A stretch of DNA of 64,000 bases from Sulfurimonas sp. hsl 1-7 (GCF_030577135.1 NZ_JAUIRR010000005.1:2113-66112); one strand, 5' to 3'; positions 51,549-59,014 are shown, counted from the first letter of the stretch. Program-made: numbers and translations. Notes: a model not told the origin generated them from the letters alone.

Positions 51549-52808
51549 ATGTTAACAATTATCATTGGGGTATATAGTCTGTATGTCCTCATTTCAATAT
51601 ATACAAGTATAATGCAGATAGGTTATGTAAACCTGGCAAAACGAAAAGAGGCTGTACTTCTATCTCCTAGTGAATTTTTAAAAGCGGGTAATTACTCTGT
51701 GAGAAAAGAGAAGCTTGCTATTTTAAATACATTTACCGACTTTCTTCTATTCTTAGGTTGGATCGCTTTTGGTATTCAATTTTTAGAGGGTGAGTTTTAT
51801 TTCCTGCAAGATGAGGCAATGAAAAATATTGCTATTGTCATGGGATTTATTCTTATTAACTTTTTCGTTGCTCTCCCTTTTACATATTATGAAAAATTTG
51901 TACTCGATCAGGAGTTTGGTTTCAATAAATCTACAAAAGCACAATGGCTGAAAGATACTGCAATCTCATTTGTAATGACGCTTCTTTTAGGCTCTTTAGT
52001 TGTATGGGGTGTATATTTTATTCTCAGCAGTTTTGAGCTTTGGTGGTTATGGAGTTTTGTATTTATATTTTCTATTATTATTTTAGTAAATATGCTCTAT
52101 CCGACATTCCGTGCAATGTTCTTTGATAAGTTGACACCTTTACAGGATGAGAACTTAGATGCTGAGATCAAAAGATTGATGGATGAAACAGGATTTGTAA
52201 GCTCGGGTGTTTTTGTAAGTGATGCTTCAAAACGTGATGCAAGACTTAATGCCTATTTCGGCGGATTTGGAAAAGCAAAAAGGGTAGTGCTTTTTGATAC
52301 TCTTTTAGAAAAGCTTTCAACAAGAGAGCTCTTAGCGGTACTCGGGCATGAACTTGGCCATTTTGCGCACGGTGACGTATATAAAAATATCGCAATGATG
52401 GGAGCAATTCTTTTTGCGATGTTCGCTCTTTTTGGAAATCTCCCTGAACATTTATATTTAGAGCTTGGTCTTTCACCGCAGCCGTATGTGGTTATGATAC
52501 TTTTTATGTTGGTGATGCCTGTACTTGGATTTATAATGATGCCTATTATGGGATTTGTAAGCCGCAAGTATGAATATGCAGCTGATGAGATGGGAAGTAA
52601 GCTTGGAGGCAACGGCGGCGAGATAGAACTTGCAAATGCCCTAGTTAAACTTGTTGCAGAAAATAAGAGTTTTCCGTTGTCTCATCCGATCTATATCTTT
52701 TTTCACTATACACACCCACCGGTGATTGAGAGACTAAAAGTGCTTGGAATGGATATAAAAGGTGTTGATAAAAGTTCATTAGAGGGCAAATGCGAAGCAA
52801 ATATATAG
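51549..52808 (+). CDS. M48 family zinc metalloprotease (Ste24-like)
   Basis: A 419-residue membrane protease. An N-terminal M48_N region (~70-190) has several helices and 'FVLDQEFGFNKST', typical of Ste24-type CAAX proteases. The active site is 'VLGHELGHFAHGD' (HExxH) at ~275, with the third ligand Glu in 'SRKYEYAADEMGSKLG' (~340). It cleaves membrane or membrane-associated proteins in envelope quality control; no prenylation is implied in bacteria. It overlaps prmC by 19 bases. Confidence 0.92.
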   Translation: MLTIIIGVYSLYVLISIYTSIMQIGYVNLAKRKEAVLLSPSEFLKAGNYSVRKEKLAILNTFTDFLLFLGWIAFGIQFLEGEFYFLQDEAMKNIAIVMGFILINFFVALPFTYYEKFVLDQEFGFNKSTKAQWLKDTAISFVMTLLLGSLVVWGVYFILSSFELWWLWSFVFIFSIIILVNMLYPTFRAMFFDKLTPLQDENLDAEIKRLMDETGFVSSGVFVSDASKRDARLNAYFGGFGKAKRVVLFDTLLEKLSTRELLAVLGHELGHFAHGDVYKNIAMMGAILFAMFALFGNLPEHLYLELGLSPQPYVVMILFMLVMPVLGFIMMPIMGFVSRKYEYAADEMGSKLGGNGGEIELANALVKLVAENKSFPLSHPIYIFFHYTHPPVIERLKVLGMDIKGVDKSSLEGKCEANI

Positions 52809-53620
52809 TCAAAGAACTTCTAAAAGATGTCAGTGCAAAATTAGCACATATCGAACGCTCACAAAGAGAAGCACAACTGCTTTTAATGTTTTATCTTGAT
52901 AAAGATGAACTTTGGCTTATCACCAATCAAAACTCTGAAGTTGAAGTTGGTGAGGATTTTTTTGCTTTAGTTGAACGAAGAGCGAAAAATGAACCTTTTG
53001 AATATATTACAAACAGAGTCAGTTTTTACTCTGAGGAGTTTTATATAGACGAAGGTGCTTTGATCCCAAGACCTGAGACGGAACTTCTTATAGATGAGGT
53101 GATAAAACGTGTCCCGGCTGATTCTGAACTGACTTTTGTTGAAGTTGGAGTAGGGAGCGGGATCATCTCTATTATGCTTGCTCTACATTTTAAAAATGCA
53201 AAGTTTATAGCGGTTGATATCTCTCCTAAAGCTTTAGAGGTAACAAAGAAAAATCTTGCAAAATTTGATCTGCAAGACAGGGTTGAGTTACGTCTTGGCT
53301 CGCTTCTTGATGAAGTGGAGGAAGAGATCGATTATCTGGTTTCAAATCCACCATATATCGCGAATGATGCAGCACTGGAATCAAACCTCTCATATGAACC
53401 GCAAAATGCACTTTTTGGCGGTGAGATCGGAGATGAGATCATTCAGGAACTTCTTGATGAAGTCTTAAAACGAAAAATTAAGTTTTTTAGTTGTGAGATG
53501 GGTTATGATCAAAAAGATAAAATACAGAATTATTTGAAAAACAAATATTACACAAGTTTAGATTTTTATAAAGACCTCAGTGATTTTGATCGGGGTTTTA
53601 CCTTAAAGGCAACACAATGA
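52790..53620 (+). CDS. prmC: Peptide chain release factor N5-glutamine methyltransferase
   Basis: A 276-residue SAM methyltransferase with the catalytic 'LVSNPPYIAND' (NPPY) motif (~183-187), SAM-binding 'FVEVGVGSGIISIML' and 'PRPETELLIDEVI'. It methylates the GGQ glutamine of release factors RF1/RF2. The ATG at 52790 has AGAGGG upstream and lies inside the M48 gene; the stop overlaps the DUF4149 start by four bases. Normal length. Confidence 0.94.
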   Translation: MRSKYIVKELLKDVSAKLAHIERSQREAQLLLMFYLDKDELWLITNQNSEVEVGEDFFALVERRAKNEPFEYITNRVSFYSEEFYIDEGALIPRPETELLIDEVIKRVPADSELTFVEVGVGSGIISIMLALHFKNAKFIAVDISPKALEVTKKNLAKFDLQDRVELRLGSLLDEVEEEIDYLVSNPPYIANDAALESNLSYEPQNALFGGEIGDEIIQELLDEVLKRKIKFFSCEMGYDQKDKIQNYLKNKYYTSLDFYKDLSDFDRGFTLKATQ

Positions 53621-54099
53621 TAAAAAGAAATATATTTTTAGACTTTAGTTATTTACTAGTAATAGCTGCAAGTCTCGGTGGCGTTTTAGCCTTAGGTGCA
53701 TTAGTGGCACCGGTTGTTTTTCATACAGATACAATGCTGGTTGGAGCACTTTTAGATAATTACAATGCCGGAATAATTATGGGTGAGATTTTTCGTAGAT
53801 TCTCGTACTGGATCTACTTTTTAGCTGCATACGTATTTATCTATGAAGCACTTATGTATAAACAGGGGCAACGTGATAATATTGCACTCATTAGTAGCTT
53901 TTTAACTATTGCAACATCTTTAATGTTCTCGGCAGTATATTCACCGAAAATTTTAGCTATGCAGGCACTAGGTACTGAAGCGACGCAAAGCGATACATTT
54001 CAAAACATCCATATAGCAAGTGAGATAGATTTTAAGATTTTAGCAGTTTCACTACTGGTATTATTTATTCGTCGCTTGATGTTGCTACGTATCTCTTAA
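53617..54099 (+). CDS. DUF4149 domain-containing membrane protein
   Basis: A 160-residue protein with four membrane helices. 'LVIAASLGGVLALGALVAPVVF' (in part), 'GEIFRRFSYWIYFLA' and 'NIHIASEIDFKILAV' match the DUF4149 (TMEM205-like) pattern, where the R(R)F and H-x-x-S regions are conserved. Function unknown. It is joined to prmC by an ATGA stop-start overlap. It ends 58 bases before the NosL-like gene, which has its own -10-like TAGAAT box. Confidence 0.82.
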   Translation: MIKRNIFLDFSYLLVIAASLGGVLALGALVAPVVFHTDTMLVGALLDNYNAGIIMGEIFRRFSYWIYFLAAYVFIYEALMYKQGQRDNIALISSFLTIATSLMFSAVYSPKILAMQALGTEATQSDTFQNIHIASEIDFKILAVSLLVLFIRRLMLLRIS

Positions 54100-54157: not shown

Positions 54158-54823
54158 ATGCAATCTCTCAAAATTTTTATCCTATTTTTACTCTCAACTA
54201 CACTTTATGCAGCTCCAAACTATTCAACTGCGATCAAAGAGAAAAAGATCTACCCTATGGGGAAAAAGATCTATGCCTCAAGATGTCAGCAGATAGATGT
54301 AAACAGTTACGCCTCTTACGAATCTTTACTCAAAGCTATAGATGAAAAATCTTTATGCAAAAAACTAAACCCTAAACATCTTGAAGCACTCTCTTTATAC
54401 CTCTGGGACCTGCAACGCAGAGATACCAAAGAGAAACATTACGGCAAGTTAATTGTATCTCATCAGGATAAGTGTCCGGTGTGTGGAATGTTTCTGTATA
54501 AATATCCCACTTGGATAGCAAAGATTCAGTATGAGAATAAAGCGTACTTCTTTGACGGGATTAAAGATCTTTTCAAGTACTACTTTGAACATCAAAAAAA
54601 TATACAAGAGATACTGGTACAAGATTATTACACGCAAAAAGCTTTAGATGCAAAAGAATCTTTTTTTGTTATAGGCAGTGACGTGTATGGACCTATGGGG
54701 AACGAGTTTATCGCTTTTGAAACACTCAAGTCGGCAAAGAAGTTTATGGTTGATCATAAAGGGAAAAAGCTCCTCAGATTTGATGAAATTAGTGAAGATA
54801 CGGTGTACGGTTTAGATGATTAG
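54158..54823 (+). CDS. NosL-like protein with extra N-terminal domain
   Basis: A 221-residue exported protein. The signal peptide is cleaved at LYA/AP; unlike usual NosL it has no lipobox. Residues ~22-95 resemble a cytochrome c fold without heme: one Cys in 'YASRCQQID', no CxxCH, then 'LNPKHLEALSLYLWD'. Residues ~98-215 are NosL-like: 'CPVCGMFLYKYPTWIAKIQ', 'AYFFDGIKDLFKYY', 'VYGPMGNEFIAF', 'AKKFMVDHKG'. NosL proteins bind Cu(I) through Cys/Met and serve nitrous oxide reductase. No nos genes are here; an ABC system follows with an eight-base overlap. Confidence 0.78.
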   Translation: MQSLKIFILFLLSTTLYAAPNYSTAIKEKKIYPMGKKIYASRCQQIDVNSYASYESLLKAIDEKSLCKKLNPKHLEALSLYLWDLQRRDTKEKHYGKLIVSHQDKCPVCGMFLYKYPTWIAKIQYENKAYFFDGIKDLFKYYFEHQKNIQEILVQDYYTQKALDAKESFFVIGSDVYGPMGNEFIAFETLKSAKKFMVDHKGKKLLRFDEISEDTVYGLDD

Positions 54824-55985
54824 TTTTAACTCTCAACTTTTTGTGTATGCACTTCATACGCTCTTTCGTTTTTTTACTAAAAATCTTTTTGTTGTGATCG
54901 TATATACACTTCTTGTAGGACTGCTCTCTTCGTTGTTCTTTATACAAACAAGTGTTAAGTACCAGGTTGACAAAATAGCAGCTCAATATCCCGATATCGT
55001 AGTGCAAAACCAAAAAGCGCAAAGATATACAACGATAGATGATACAAATCTCAACAAGATATATGAGATTTATGGTGTGAATGATGTTGTAGCTCGTGTG
55101 TACGGGGAGTATGAATACAAACAAGCAGATCTCAGTTTTAAGATTGTAGGGGTAGATATATTTGAAACACAAAAAGAACCTTACCTTGAGAGTGTACTTA
55201 AATCGTCTGAACTAAGAGGAGGGGAGATGTTCCTCTCAAAAGAGTTAGCTGAGCTTTTTGCAAAGAACTATTATAGAGATGAGTTTAATTTTTTACAACC
55301 CTCTTTAAAAGTGAAAAAGATGGGTATCGCTCAAAGCTTTAAGAGTGACGCTATAGATAAAAAATATCTGGCCGTAATGAGTAAAGAGGATGCAAAAGAG
55401 ATCTTTGGATATAAAGCAAACGAGTTTACCGATATAGCTGTTTATCTCTCAAACCAAAATGAGCTGATGAACGTGATTACACAACTCCAGCAACTCTATC
55501 CAAATGCAAAAATGGTTACAAAGGAGGATGAACAAACAAATATTGAGATGTTATTTGATTATGACAGCGGGATTTTTATTACACTGTTTATTATCTCAAT
55601 CTTTACATTTTTTATGATCGTATATGATAAAACAAACAGTGTAAGCAGCAGTGAAAAAAGGGAGATAGGGATACTTAAAGCTTTAGGGTGGAGGGTAGAA
55701 GATATTCTGCGTGTAAAGATATATGAAGCGAGTATTATTTCGATTTTTTCATACATCTTTGGTGTTGTATTGGCGTTAGGCTATCTTTACTTCTTTGACG
55801 GGTATTACCTACGGGATATCTTTTTAAATATAGCAGGGGTAGAGCAGATAGACTCTTTAGAACTAAGAGTAGACCTACAACCTTTAGCTATCGTATTTTT
55901 CCTGAGTGTCCCGGTATATATTGCCGCAACTATTATTCCGTCATGGAAGATAGCAACTCAGGATGCTGATGAGGTGATGAGATGA
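54816..55985 (+). CDS. MacB/LolC-type (FtsX family) ABC transporter permease
   Basis: A 389-residue protein with one N-terminal helix (~25-45), a ~200-residue periplasmic domain, and three C-terminal helices (~250-270, ~305-330, ~355-375). 'SSEKREIGILKALGWRVEDIL' (in part) is the FtsX-type coupling motif that contacts the ATPase. Such proteins drive periplasmic or outer-membrane processes by mechanotransmission rather than classic import. It overlaps the NosL-like gene by eight bases and the ATPase gene by four, so the subunits are co-translated. Confidence 0.88.
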   Translation: MISFNSQLFVYALHTLFRFFTKNLFVVIVYTLLVGLLSSLFFIQTSVKYQVDKIAAQYPDIVVQNQKAQRYTTIDDTNLNKIYEIYGVNDVVARVYGEYEYKQADLSFKIVGVDIFETQKEPYLESVLKSSELRGGEMFLSKELAELFAKNYYRDEFNFLQPSLKVKKMGIAQSFKSDAIDKKYLAVMSKEDAKEIFGYKANEFTDIAVYLSNQNELMNVITQLQQLYPNAKMVTKEDEQTNIEMLFDYDSGIFITLFIISIFTFFMIVYDKTNSVSSSEKREIGILKALGWRVEDILRVKIYEASIISIFSYIFGVVLALGYLYFFDGYYLRDIFLNIAGVEQIDSLELRVDLQPLAIVFFLSVPVYIAATIIPSWKIATQDADEVMR

Positions 55986-56638
55986 TCCGGTTAATCCAAC
56001 TCAATAAATCGTATAAAGAGAAATCTGCTCTTAAAGATATCAATCTCTCATTTAAAGAGGGTGAACTTGTTGTTCTTAAAGGAGTGAGCGGTAGCGGGAA
56101 AACTACAATTCTTTCTTTAATATCGGCGCTTTTAAAACCGACAAACGGTGAGGTGATTGTAGATGGGAAAAAGCTTTCAAGAATAGCGGATCATTTTGCA
56201 AGTGAATTTCGCCGCGATAATATAGGTTTTATTTTTCAGAGATACAACCTTATCCCAAACATGAGTGTGGCTGAGAATATCCTCCTTCCGCTGCGACCGT
56301 TAAACCTTCCAAAAGAGGAGTTGCAAACGAGGCTGGATAAGCTGCTGGAGCTTTATAAACTCCAAGAGTATAAAGACAATTATTCCCAAAACCTCTCAGG
56401 TGGACAACAACAGCGTGTGGCAATTGCAAGAGCTATTGTAAATGACCCGAAAATCATACTCGCAGATGAACCGACATCAAACCTGGATAAAGAGCTCTCG
56501 TTAGAGTTTATAGAGCAGATAAAAGCTCTTAAGAGTGAAAATAAAACGATCATTATAGCGACGCACGATCCGCTCTTTTTTGAGCTTGATTTTGTTGATC
56601 GCATCGTAGAGATTGAAAACGGACAACTAAAAGCATGA
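55982..56638 (+). CDS. LolD/MacB-type ABC transporter ATP-binding protein
   Basis: A 218-residue ATPase: Walker A 'KGVSGSGKTTIL', Q-loop 'FIFQRYNLIPNMSVAENI', signature 'NLSGGQQQRVAIARAI', Walker B 'IILADEPTSNLD' and H-loop 'IIATHDP'. It pairs with the adjacent FtsX-type permease. The four-base ATGA overlaps on both sides show tight coupling of permease, ATPase and the following membrane protein. Confidence 0.93.
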   Translation: MIRLIQLNKSYKEKSALKDINLSFKEGELVVLKGVSGSGKTTILSLISALLKPTNGEVIVDGKKLSRIADHFASEFRRDNIGFIFQRYNLIPNMSVAENILLPLRPLNLPKEELQTRLDKLLELYKLQEYKDNYSQNLSGGQQQRVAIARAIVNDPKIILADEPTSNLDKELSLEFIEQIKALKSENKTIIIATHDPLFFELDFVDRIVEIENGQLKA

Positions 56639-57591
56639 GTTTAACGCCTGAAGTTTTAAGTATCTATATCGTTGATATACTTTTTCTGTTTTTCGCGTCG
56701 ATCGCCTTTTATTTGAGTCTAAAAATTACACTGGGATACGATCGAAATAAAAATACGCAACAGCAGTATGAGCTTGAGAAAAAAAGCTACCTGGCAGCTA
56801 CCATTATCAAGTTTATTTTCTTTATCAAGATCCCGATGTTTGTCTTCTTTGTCTTTACCCTCGATAAGATCTCAAATATCTTAGTAGGTGCAATGTGTGC
56901 AGCCGGAGTTGTCAATGCAACCGAGTACGGTGTACCGTTACTGATACTTAAAATGTTAAATCTGTATCTCTTTGCGTTTTGGATCACACTCAACAGTGAA
57001 GATATGAAATATGAAGAGCAAAAATATTTTCGTGCAAAGTTTTTACTTTTTATCGTTGCTTTTGTTTTACTTCTGATTGAGATTATTACAGAGATAGTGA
57101 TGTTTTCAAGTATAGATATAAACAGTATTGTAGATTGTTGCGGTGCTATTTTCTCTGTGACAGATACTACCTATATCTCTGAGCTTTTATCGAAAGATAC
57201 ACTCTTAGTAACTCTATTTTATGGAAGTTTTATCCTGTTAGCACTCTCTTTCCTCTTAAAACAAAGAGCTCTTTACGGAGTGTTGAATCTTCTGTTTGTA
57301 ATCGTATCTATATTGTCGCTTATATCATTTTTCGGCACCTATATATATGAACTTCCGACACATCACTGTCCGTTTTGTATGTTGCAAAAAGATTATAACT
57401 ATATAGGGTATTTTTTATATATCTTTTTATTTTACGGAACATATTACGGAGTATCTCTTGCATTTTTAGAGTATGAAAGAAAAGAGGTAAAAAGAAGATT
57501 TAATCTCTCACTACTGTTTAATTTTATCTATTTAGTATTAGTGAGTTATTTTCCGATAAGTTATTATTTTAAAAACGGAGTTTGGCTTTAA
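56635..57591 (+). CDS. Multi-pass membrane protein with CxxC motif, last gene of the NosL/ABC cassette
   Basis: A 318-residue protein with about eight membrane helices. Two Cys sites stand out: 'SIVDCCGAIFSV' (~165) in a loop, and 'ELPTHHCPFCMLQKDYNY' (~245), whose CxxC-x-LQ resembles the redox site of DsbB/DsbI-type quinone-linked disulfide enzymes, though overall similarity is not shown. His-His-Cys-x2-Cys plus Met could equally bind copper. It overlaps the ATPase gene by four bases, so it is part of the same unit, and its stop overlaps the convergent J-domain gene stop by four bases. Function inferred only from context. Confidence 0.7.
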   Translation: MSLTPEVLSIYIVDILFLFFASIAFYLSLKITLGYDRNKNTQQQYELEKKSYLAATIIKFIFFIKIPMFVFFVFTLDKISNILVGAMCAAGVVNATEYGVPLLILKMLNLYLFAFWITLNSEDMKYEEQKYFRAKFLLFIVAFVLLLIEIITEIVMFSSIDINSIVDCCGAIFSVTDTTYISELLSKDTLLVTLFYGSFILLALSFLLKQRALYGVLNLLFVIVSILSLISFFGTYIYELPTHHCPFCMLQKDYNYIGYFLYIFLFYGTYYGVSLAFLEYERKEVKRRFNLSLLFNFIYLVLVSYFPISYYFKNGVWL

Positions 57592-57884
57592 CGATTAGGG
57601 CCAAATTTATCGTTCCACCACTCTTGCGGCGTATATGTAGCTGTTTTGATACTCTCTTCATCAAACGGGTATTCAAAGTTGTCACAGTAGTTCATAATAG
57701 TTTCATATGCTTCATTTATTTGCATACTCATCTGTGTTGCGCGATCGGGATTCTCTTTATGTTTATCTGGATGCCATTTCTTCATGAGAAGTTTGTATTT
57801 TTGTTTGATTTCTTTTAGAGAGGATTTTTCACGAAGACCAAGGAGTGATTTGGCCTTCATGAGTTTTTCAAAGGAGGAGTTCAA
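57588..57884 (-). CDS. J-domain (DnaJ-like) small protein after ftsZ
   Basis: A 98-residue protein that is mostly one J domain: helix II 'LKEIKQKYKLLMKKW', the HPD motif in 'WHPDKHKENPDR', and helix III 'MQINEAYETIM'. A short C-terminal tail ends 'TPQEWWNDKFG'. It would stimulate a DnaK-type Hsp70. It starts at TTG 57884, five bases after the ftsZ stop, probably by translational coupling; ATG 57860 would remove part of helix I and lacks an SD. It is the last gene of the ppiD-ftsA-ftsZ unit. Confidence 0.85.
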   Translation of the reverse strand: MNSSFEKLMKAKSLLGLREKSSLKEIKQKYKLLMKKWHPDKHKENPDRATQMSMQINEAYETIMNYCDNFEYPFDEESIKTATYTPQEWWNDKFGPNR

Positions 57885-57889
57885 TAGCT

Positions 57890-59014
57890 CTAGTCTTGTT
57901 GTTTTCTCATATATGCAGGGATATCTAGGTAGTCACCGTCTAGCTCTCCGCCTACAACCATACGAGGGCTCATTCTTACTTTTGGAGTAATTGGTTCTTG
58001 AGCTTCAAAGTCAGTATTATTTGTTAATACTTCCTCTTCCTCTTTATCAAAACCAGTTGCTACGATAGTAATTCTTACATAGTTTTCAGGAAGATCTGCA
58101 TCTGTTGAAGTTCCCCAGATAACATCTGCTTCATCGTGAGCACTTTCGTGTACAACTTCCATAGCTTCAGACATATCGATAAACGAGAAGTCAGGGTGGA
58201 TTTTAAAGTGTACAAGTACACCCATTGCACCGTTGATAGACATATTGTCAAGTAACGGAGACTCGATAGCCGCTTTAATAGCTTCATAAGCAGCATTTTC
58301 ACCTTCATGCTCACCAACACCCATAAGTGCCATACCTCTATGACTCATTACAGTTTGTAGATCGGCAAAGTCAAGGTTGATGTCGTTATCACCGCTTGAT
58401 AAAATAACACCAGATGTTCCGCTTACAGCTTGTGCTAAAACGCTATCTACGATCTTGAAGCTCTCTTTTAGACCAAGTCTTCTGTCGATGATAGATAAAA
58501 GTTTGTCATTTGGAATAACTACGATAGAGTCACTCTCTTTTTTCAGCTCTTCTAAACCTGCATCTGCAAGTTGTAGTCTTTTCTTCCCTTCAAATTTGAA
58601 AGGTTTTGTAACTACTGAAATAGTAAGTGCGCCTACCTCTTTTGCGATCTGAGCAACAACAGGTGCAGCACCAGTACCAGTACCTCCACCAAGACCAGCA
58701 GAGATAAATACGATATCAGCACCCTCTAAAGCGTTTCTAATTTCATCATAGTTCTCTAGTGCAGAATCACGACCAACTTGTGGCTTCATACCAGCTCCAA
58801 GACCTTTTGTCAGGTTTGCACCGATTTGGATCTTTGTTGCAGATGTGTTTTCGTTAAGTACTTGCGCATCCGTATTTACAAGCATCATCTCGATGCCACC
58901 CACACCTTCATTTAGCATATGACCGATCATGTTGCCGCCACCGCCGCCAACACCTACAGCAATAATTCTTGCACCGCTTGGGTTTTGTACCTCTTCAACT
59001 ATAAATGGTTCCAT
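57890..59014 (-). CDS. ftsZ: Cell division protein FtsZ
   Basis: A 374-residue tubulin-like GTPase: 'IIAVGVGGGGGNMIGHML', the tubulin signature 'GLGGGTGTGAAPVVA' (~105-119), 'LNLDFADLQTVM'-like sequence (NLDFADLQTVMSHRG) and a short C-terminal linker with a conserved peptide 'LDIPAYMRKQQD', which is the FtsA/ZipA-binding tail. It polymerises into the division ring. SD AAAGGAG is seven bases before ATG 59014; ftsA ends 12 bases upstream. Confidence 0.98.
   Translation of the reverse strand: MEPFIVEEVQNPSGARIIAVGVGGGGGNMIGHMLNEGVGGIEMMLVNTDAQVLNENTSATKIQIGANLTKGLGAGMKPQVGRDSALENYDEIRNALEGADIVFISAGLGGGTGTGAAPVVAQIAKEVGALTISVVTKPFKFEGKKRLQLADAGLEELKKESDSIVVIPNDKLLSIIDRRLGLKESFKIVDSVLAQAVSGTSGVILSSGDNDINLDFADLQTVMSHRGMALMGVGEHEGENAAYEAIKAAIESPLLDNMSINGAMGVLVHFKIHPDFSFIDMSEAMEVVHESAHDEADVIWGTSTDADLPENYVRITIVATGFDKEEEEVLTNNTDFEAQEPITPKVRMSPRMVVGGELDGDYLDIPAYMRKQQD

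Follow-up and report, generated by a model that had tools for sequence, protein, structure and literature searches.

At positions 54158-57591 of the window (the whole 64,000-nt stretch of Sulfurimonas sp. hsl 1-7 DNA that was analysed, drawn from a 2.28-Mb genome that is 99.99% complete), four plus-strand open reading frames (ORFs) follow one another with successive overlaps of 8, 4 and 4 bp, an arrangement that a preliminary description of this DNA had correctly claimed. They encode a NosL-domain protein, the permease and ATPase of an ATP-binding cassette (ABC) system, and an eight-helix membrane protein without a named family, hereafter TM8. We compared this cassette with its counterparts in a survey of 397 Campylobacterota genomes (each at least 90% complete), where it is tied to nitrous oxide (N2O) reductase, NosZ, and to MccA, an octahaem, haem-copper sulfite reductase. 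The best-supported statement is that the cassette serves periplasmic cuproenzymes as a module for copper delivery or for the upkeep of their copper sites.

The first protein carries a full NosL domain: Pfam NosL (PF05573) matches residues 100-216 with an E-value of 3.9e-33, scoring 115 bits against a cut-off of 24 and covering profile positions 4-131 of 131. Within this domain lies a CPVCGM motif (residues 106-111), and C106, C109, M111 and M180 (the Met of GPMG) are invariant in 15 aligned sequences and align with NosL sequences of the PDB. The poor alignment and unconserved Cys and Met that the preliminary description had named as grounds for doubting its NosL-like assignment were thus not found, and only its epithet “Met-rich” is loose, since some Met residues are conserved but few. 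As that description had also noted, the signal-like N-terminus MQSLKIFILFLLSTTLYAAPNYS contains no Cys and hence no lipobox; a lipid anchor is usual for characterised NosL. An AlphaFold2 model (predicted local distance difference test score, pLDDT, 88) found its top PDB fold matches (7og7/7osf) in Shewanella denitrificans NosL and the NosL of the NosDFYL complex, followed by cytochromes c6 with probabilities of 0.97-0.99 but E-values of 0.13-0.3. These latter matches are most simply explained by the N-domain (approximately residues 24-90), modelled as three helices and bearing C43 and C67, both invariant in the 15 sequences. No CxxCH haem motif was found in the protein, and the model supports the earlier reading of a haem-less, cytochrome-like N-terminus as a resemblance of fold only. 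The CxxCxM motif is that of clade II NosL, and in Paracoccus NosL serves CuZ as a Cu(I) chaperone (PMC6530538).

The second and third proteins form a pair of FtsX-like permease and cognate LolD/FtsE-like ATPase, the combination that defines the type VII ABC superfamily. The permease scores 49.4 bits against PF02687 (cut-off 25.5), and the ATPase, whose closest models are FtsE and LolD, retains the Walker A motif, an LSGG(Q/E)QQ signature and DEPT(S/A)NLD. Neither reaches the level of a LolCDE equivalog, with the permease at 39 bits versus 362 (TIGR02212) and the ATPase at 185 versus 308 (TIGR02211). MacB/Lol-type ABC systems act on envelope clients.

TM8 is modelled with eight helices (pLDDT 87.8), as first described, and the Cys of its two motifs, DCC (C168-C169) and HHCPFC (H243, then C245-P-F-C248-x-L-Q), are invariant. 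Across 29 sequences this holds for C168, C169, H243, C245 and C248, and nearly so for C88 (in GAMC); by Lys plus Arg counts (the positive-inside pattern), all Cys-bearing loops are predicted to face the periplasm. Searches of Pfam and NCBIfam gave no match for TM8, and 28 related sequences fared no better with Pfam. A profile search of the PDB gave no match, Foldseek and VIA-align comparisons of the model with the PDB returned generic helical bundles and nothing convincing, alignment of the two TM8 halves with hhalign found no internal repeat, and a search of viral contigs yielded no relatives. Kinship with DsbB or VKOR likewise drew no match in profile and Foldseek searches, an absence that is not an exclusion; a thiol-redox activity would be possible, with no such kinship detectable.

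TM8 occurs in 161 of the 397 genomes; where a locus extends far enough, the ATPase and FtsX genes almost always adjoin it, and a NosL gene usually lies upstream. With TM8 so widespread and its ABC partners beside it in almost every locus read, the arrangement is not due to chance, and the separation of the four genes in other genomes, which had been offered as an outcome that would overturn the proposal, was not what we observed. Many relatives have additions to the four genes: the first NosL domain is fused to a second, a small protein with a single helix is encoded between NosL and FtsX, and a further NosL-like gene follows TM8. Compared with these expanded cassettes the window holds the minimal form.

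The preliminary description had called the cassette one without nos genes, which is true of the 64,000-nt window and, for nosZ, of the whole genome: a TIGR04246 profile search found no NosZ in this genome (G000) or its sister G031. Across the phylum, however, TM8 and NosZ occur together in 103 genomes, TM8 alone in 58, NosZ alone in 25 and neither in 211 (NosZ in 128 of 397 in all), an odds ratio of 15 with a P-value of 1e-29, uncorrected for phylogeny. In 27 of 76 genomes, TM8 and nosZ are no more than 25 kb apart. Furthermore, three Sulfurimonas relatives (G012, G005 and G021) show the order ftsZ-CRP-nosZ B D G C2 C1 H F L Y L-CRP-NosL-TM8-ATPase-FtsX-small protein-NosL-DUF4149-prmC, and a fourth (G368) follows it as far as it was read, to FtsX. 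The flanks of this island, ftsZ on one side and DUF4149/prmC on the other, are exactly those of the window, so that the chromosomal site is the same and the window is most simply read as a nos island minus its nos genes. Loss of the nos genes from the site between ftsZ and the cassette in the window's lineage would be the simplest history from these gene orders; their insertion at this site in the other lineage is an alternative, and not the simplest. The claim that the pathway is separate from denitrification is therefore unsupported as written, given the shared site and the co-occurrence with NosZ, and survives in a narrower form: in the window's genome and its sister, both without NosZ, purifying selection still acts on the cassette, and the cassette's second major partner is a sulfite reductase. 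An unexplained “five-gene insertion” that a 2016 paper (PMC4794192) reported from within the Sulfurospirillum cavolei nos cluster, with genes given as hypothetical, ABC permease, ABC ATPase, hypothetical and hypothetical, is most likely this cassette.

Other genes accompany the island. G005 and G368 have a multihaem cytochrome gene close to the second CRP gene, and G021 has one on the other side of the nos cluster, between it and ftsZ. In several Sulfurimonas (L048:12103-13224, L157, L161), genes for a CRP-family regulator and a multihaem cytochrome (Cytochrome_C7/C554) stand between cassette and nos cluster, and both persist in a NosZ-negative relative (L090). The genome G024, likewise without NosZ, retains CRP and multihaem genes at the island's site.

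The second link is to MccA. True MccA, a homologue of PDB 4rkm (cut-off of at least 62% identity), was found in 55 genomes, and all 55 have TM8; among NosZ-negative genomes with true MccA, TM8 is present in 12 of 12 (P-value 4e-9, uncorrected for phylogeny). In Campylobacter-, Sulfurospirillum- and Arcobacter-like genomes (genus inferred from context), the cassette ends the MccA operon, following genes for MccA, an FKBP-type protein, an Fe-S protein, an NrfD-like protein, a CcsBA-type haem lyase and a Sel1-repeat protein. TM8 and mccA are 9.6-13.2 kb apart in 29 of the 31 genomes with listed positions, the exceptions being one pair split across contigs and one 102 kb apart. Some of the genomes that encode both enzymes, such as G292, G252, G255 and G416, have separate TM8 copies near nosZ and near mccA, and the mcc-linked TM8 sequences form one clade (support 100/100). 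MccA is listed as a cuproenzyme in PMC7558416, which cites Hermann et al. 2015. No description of the mcc link was found in searchable papers, and an earlier one may exist in the mcc-cluster paper of Kern et al. 2011, which lay outside that search. At one locus (L104, G055:C1:853000-864500), transposase genes have apparently taken the place of mccA/mccB at the end of an mcc operon that is intact elsewhere, and the downstream cassette remains.

Table 1 Genes of the cassette and its flanks in the window
Feature	Position	Strand	Length	Basis or remark
NosL-domain protein	54158..54823	+	221 aa	Pfam PF05573, conservation, PDB NosL sequence matches, model and fold matches
FtsX/LolC-type (type VII, MacB/Lol-like) ABC permease	54816..55985	+	389 aa	PF02687 5.9e-13; TIGR02212 lolCE 3.8e-10 (far under cut-off); PDB LolC 3.4e-5
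LolD/FtsE-type ABC ATPase	55982..56638	+	218 aa	PF00005 2.1e-37; FtsE/LolD models below cut-off; conservation
TM8, eight-helix membrane protein without named family	56635..57591	+	318 aa	Conserved Cys, structure model, positive-inside pattern
Left flank: prmC and DUF4149 gene	52790..54099	+		Matches left flank in relatives with nos cluster here
Right flank: DnaJ-domain gene and ftsZ	57588..59014	-		In G012, G005, G021 and G368, complete nos cluster between ftsZ and TM8

Neither NosZ nor MccA was found in the window's genome or in G031, and we used this pair to estimate the ratio of non-synonymous to synonymous substitution rates (dN/dS) for each cassette gene: 0.091 for NosL, 0.060 for FtsX, 0.054 for the ATPase and 0.071 for TM8, similar to the flanking prmC (0.086), at a synonymous divergence (dS) of 0.6-0.8 for the cassette. 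Because these ratios are low in a pair negative for both enzymes, the cassette is most likely still in use in this lineage.

Among the known copper enzymes tested, only CcoN, of the cbb3 oxidase, is present in the window's genome; a multicopper oxidase was rejected as client, being not found in this genome and scattered in relatives. The TonB-copper receptor model (TIGR01778) gave weak matches below cut-off in most genomes and a clear link at one locus only (L100), and was not used; at that locus (L100:13297-15300, G434), the gene immediately after the cassette NosL genes encodes a TonB-dependent receptor, possibly for copper, in which the motif CGACPNRM occurs. The window's genome also encodes a second NosL, a lipoprotein with CHLCGM and CSIHC motifs (G000:C2:20363-20683; locus L165, 7601-14419), whose neighbours are a CIGC membrane protein, a TlpA-like thioredoxin and a molybdopterin oxidoreductase operon (1130-aa catalytic subunit, NrfD-like and Fe-S proteins); this oxidoreductase had been considered as SoxC, an identification we rejected. 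In other Sulfurimonas, NosL or NosL-like domains occur in long frames with membrane proteins of 610-918 aa of the Fer4_5 polyferredoxin type (L163:355-2184, L164:519-2348 and L162:1654-4407).

Taken together, we consider it probable that the four genes make up an ATP-driven module dedicated to maturing copper enzymes of the periplasm, kept here for another client. In such a module the NosL-domain protein, whose ligand residues are conserved, would hold Cu(I) through C106, C109, M111 and M180; the FtsX-type permease and its ATPase would act as a type VII ABC machine that couples cytoplasmic ATP hydrolysis to motion of a periplasmic domain, an action suggested by their family; and the conserved Cys/His cluster of TM8, predicted to lie at the periplasmic face of the membrane, may relay Cu(I) or keep Cys of NosL or the client reduced. 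Transport of copper and its ATP-driven handover are what we infer from these parts. The most likely clients in relatives would be MccA and N2O reductase of the cytochrome-c type, for which some genomes have separate cassette copies; the window's lineage would have lost the nos cluster from the shared locus and kept the cassette for another client. More tentatively, we propose the possibility that this is an as yet unnamed ATP-driven copper-insertion machine (NosL, type VII ABC and a five-Cys eight-helix protein) with client-specific copies for NosZ and MccA and a third periplasmic copper enzyme served in the window's lineage. The preliminary description's broader notion of a copper-linked, Cys-containing envelope pathway is supported, with the NosL ligand residues kept and the cassette bound physically and phyletically to both enzymes.

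Several observations weigh against this interpretation. TM8 is not essential for NosZ, since 25 NosZ genomes lack it, and in 46 of the 161 genomes with TM8 both NosZ and true MccA are missing. Another MccA-like class of octahaem proteins (L107-L113; approximately 45-51% identity, 41 genomes) shows no association with TM8 and yet keeps the two non-haem Cys presumed to ligate copper; loss of these Cys was considered as the explanation and rejected, as both are retained. Genus g9 has FtsX-ATPase-TM8 without an adjacent NosL in the four loci read. For the window itself no specific client is shown, the cbb3 oxidase being present also in most TM8-negative relatives, and the two association tests above stand without phylogenetic correction.

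The strongest rival is that the cassette maintains thiol redox state or cytochrome c maturation, with TM8 as a DsbB- or CcdA-like oxidoreductase on apocytochrome Cys and no movement of copper, because both partners carry haem c (NosZ of Campylobacterota in a haem c domain). The CxxC and vicinal CC of TM8 on the periplasmic side, the haem-less cytochrome c-like domain of the NosL protein and the position of the cassette after a CcsBA-type haem lyase in mcc operons would all suit such a role. We nonetheless judge it unlikely: a NosL domain with Cu ligands accompanies the cassette in most loci, the multihaem MccA-like class at about 50% identity is mostly without TM8, and profile and Foldseek searches gave no match of TM8 to DsbB/VKOR.

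That the cassette supplies copper to cbb3 cytochrome c oxidase is doubtful to a greater degree. CcoN is encoded in the window's genome, where NosZ, MccA and a multicopper oxidase were not found; however, CcoN occurs in 53 of 60 relatives against 39 of 60 for TM8, and it is a weak client candidate because it is common in genomes without TM8, nor was linkage to ccoN seen in any locus read. It is also improbable that the cassette is a functionless leftover of a lost nos island, a view that the missing NosZ, the nos clusters at the same site in relatives and the partial relic in G024 (regulator and multihaem genes only) would favour, for the four genes are intact with dN/dS of 0.05-0.09 at dS of 0.6-0.8, like prmC, and other NosZ-negative genomes and genera also retain an intact TM8. 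MacB-like export that rids the inner membrane or periplasm of copper or detoxifies it, with NosL as sensor or sponge, would accord with the envelope clients of MacB/Lol-type systems and the tight Cu(I) binding of NosL-type sites (PMC6530538) but is hardly probable: the genes linked to the cassette are those of enzymes that use copper and not cop or cus genes, and the loci read contained no recognisable partner of MacA or TolC type.

If the cassette is indeed a copper maturation module, NosL-dependent copper delivery would extend beyond N2O reductase, and copper-site assembly would gain a mechanotransmission-type ABC machine together with a new family of Cys-rich membrane proteins. To our knowledge, the route of copper into MccA has not been described, and the cassette, present in every true-MccA genome sampled, is a direct candidate for this insertion. 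In N2O-respiring Campylobacterota, the nos island would have an accessory module, missed by standard annotation, to which a name could be put.

Among known systems, the closest likeness is to NosDFY-NosL, which also joins a NosL-type Cu(I) chaperone to an ABC ATPase and permease for a periplasmic copper enzyme and shares the NosL fold and ligands. The cassette differs in having an FtsX/LolC-type permease rather than NosY and in lacking NosD (in relatives, NosD, NosF and NosY are encoded apart from the cassette, by genes of the adjacent nos cluster), and adds a Cys-rich eight-helix protein, a haem-less cytochrome-like domain and linkage to MccA. With the type VII ABC systems MacB, LolCDE and FtsEX it shares the FtsX-domain permease and LolD/FtsE-like ATPase, but it scores far under the LolCE and LolD/FtsE equivalog cut-offs and has NosL and TM8 as partners. 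For the S. cavolei insertion (PMC4794192) neither a function, a NosL partner nor an mcc link was proposed, and the window, in contrast, has no nos cluster. TM8, finally, resembles DsbB, VKOR and CcdA as a multi-helix membrane protein in which a CxxC and a further pair of Cys face the periplasm, and departs from them in its eight helices, its pattern of CC, CPFC and GAMC and its lack of any Pfam, profile or Foldseek match.

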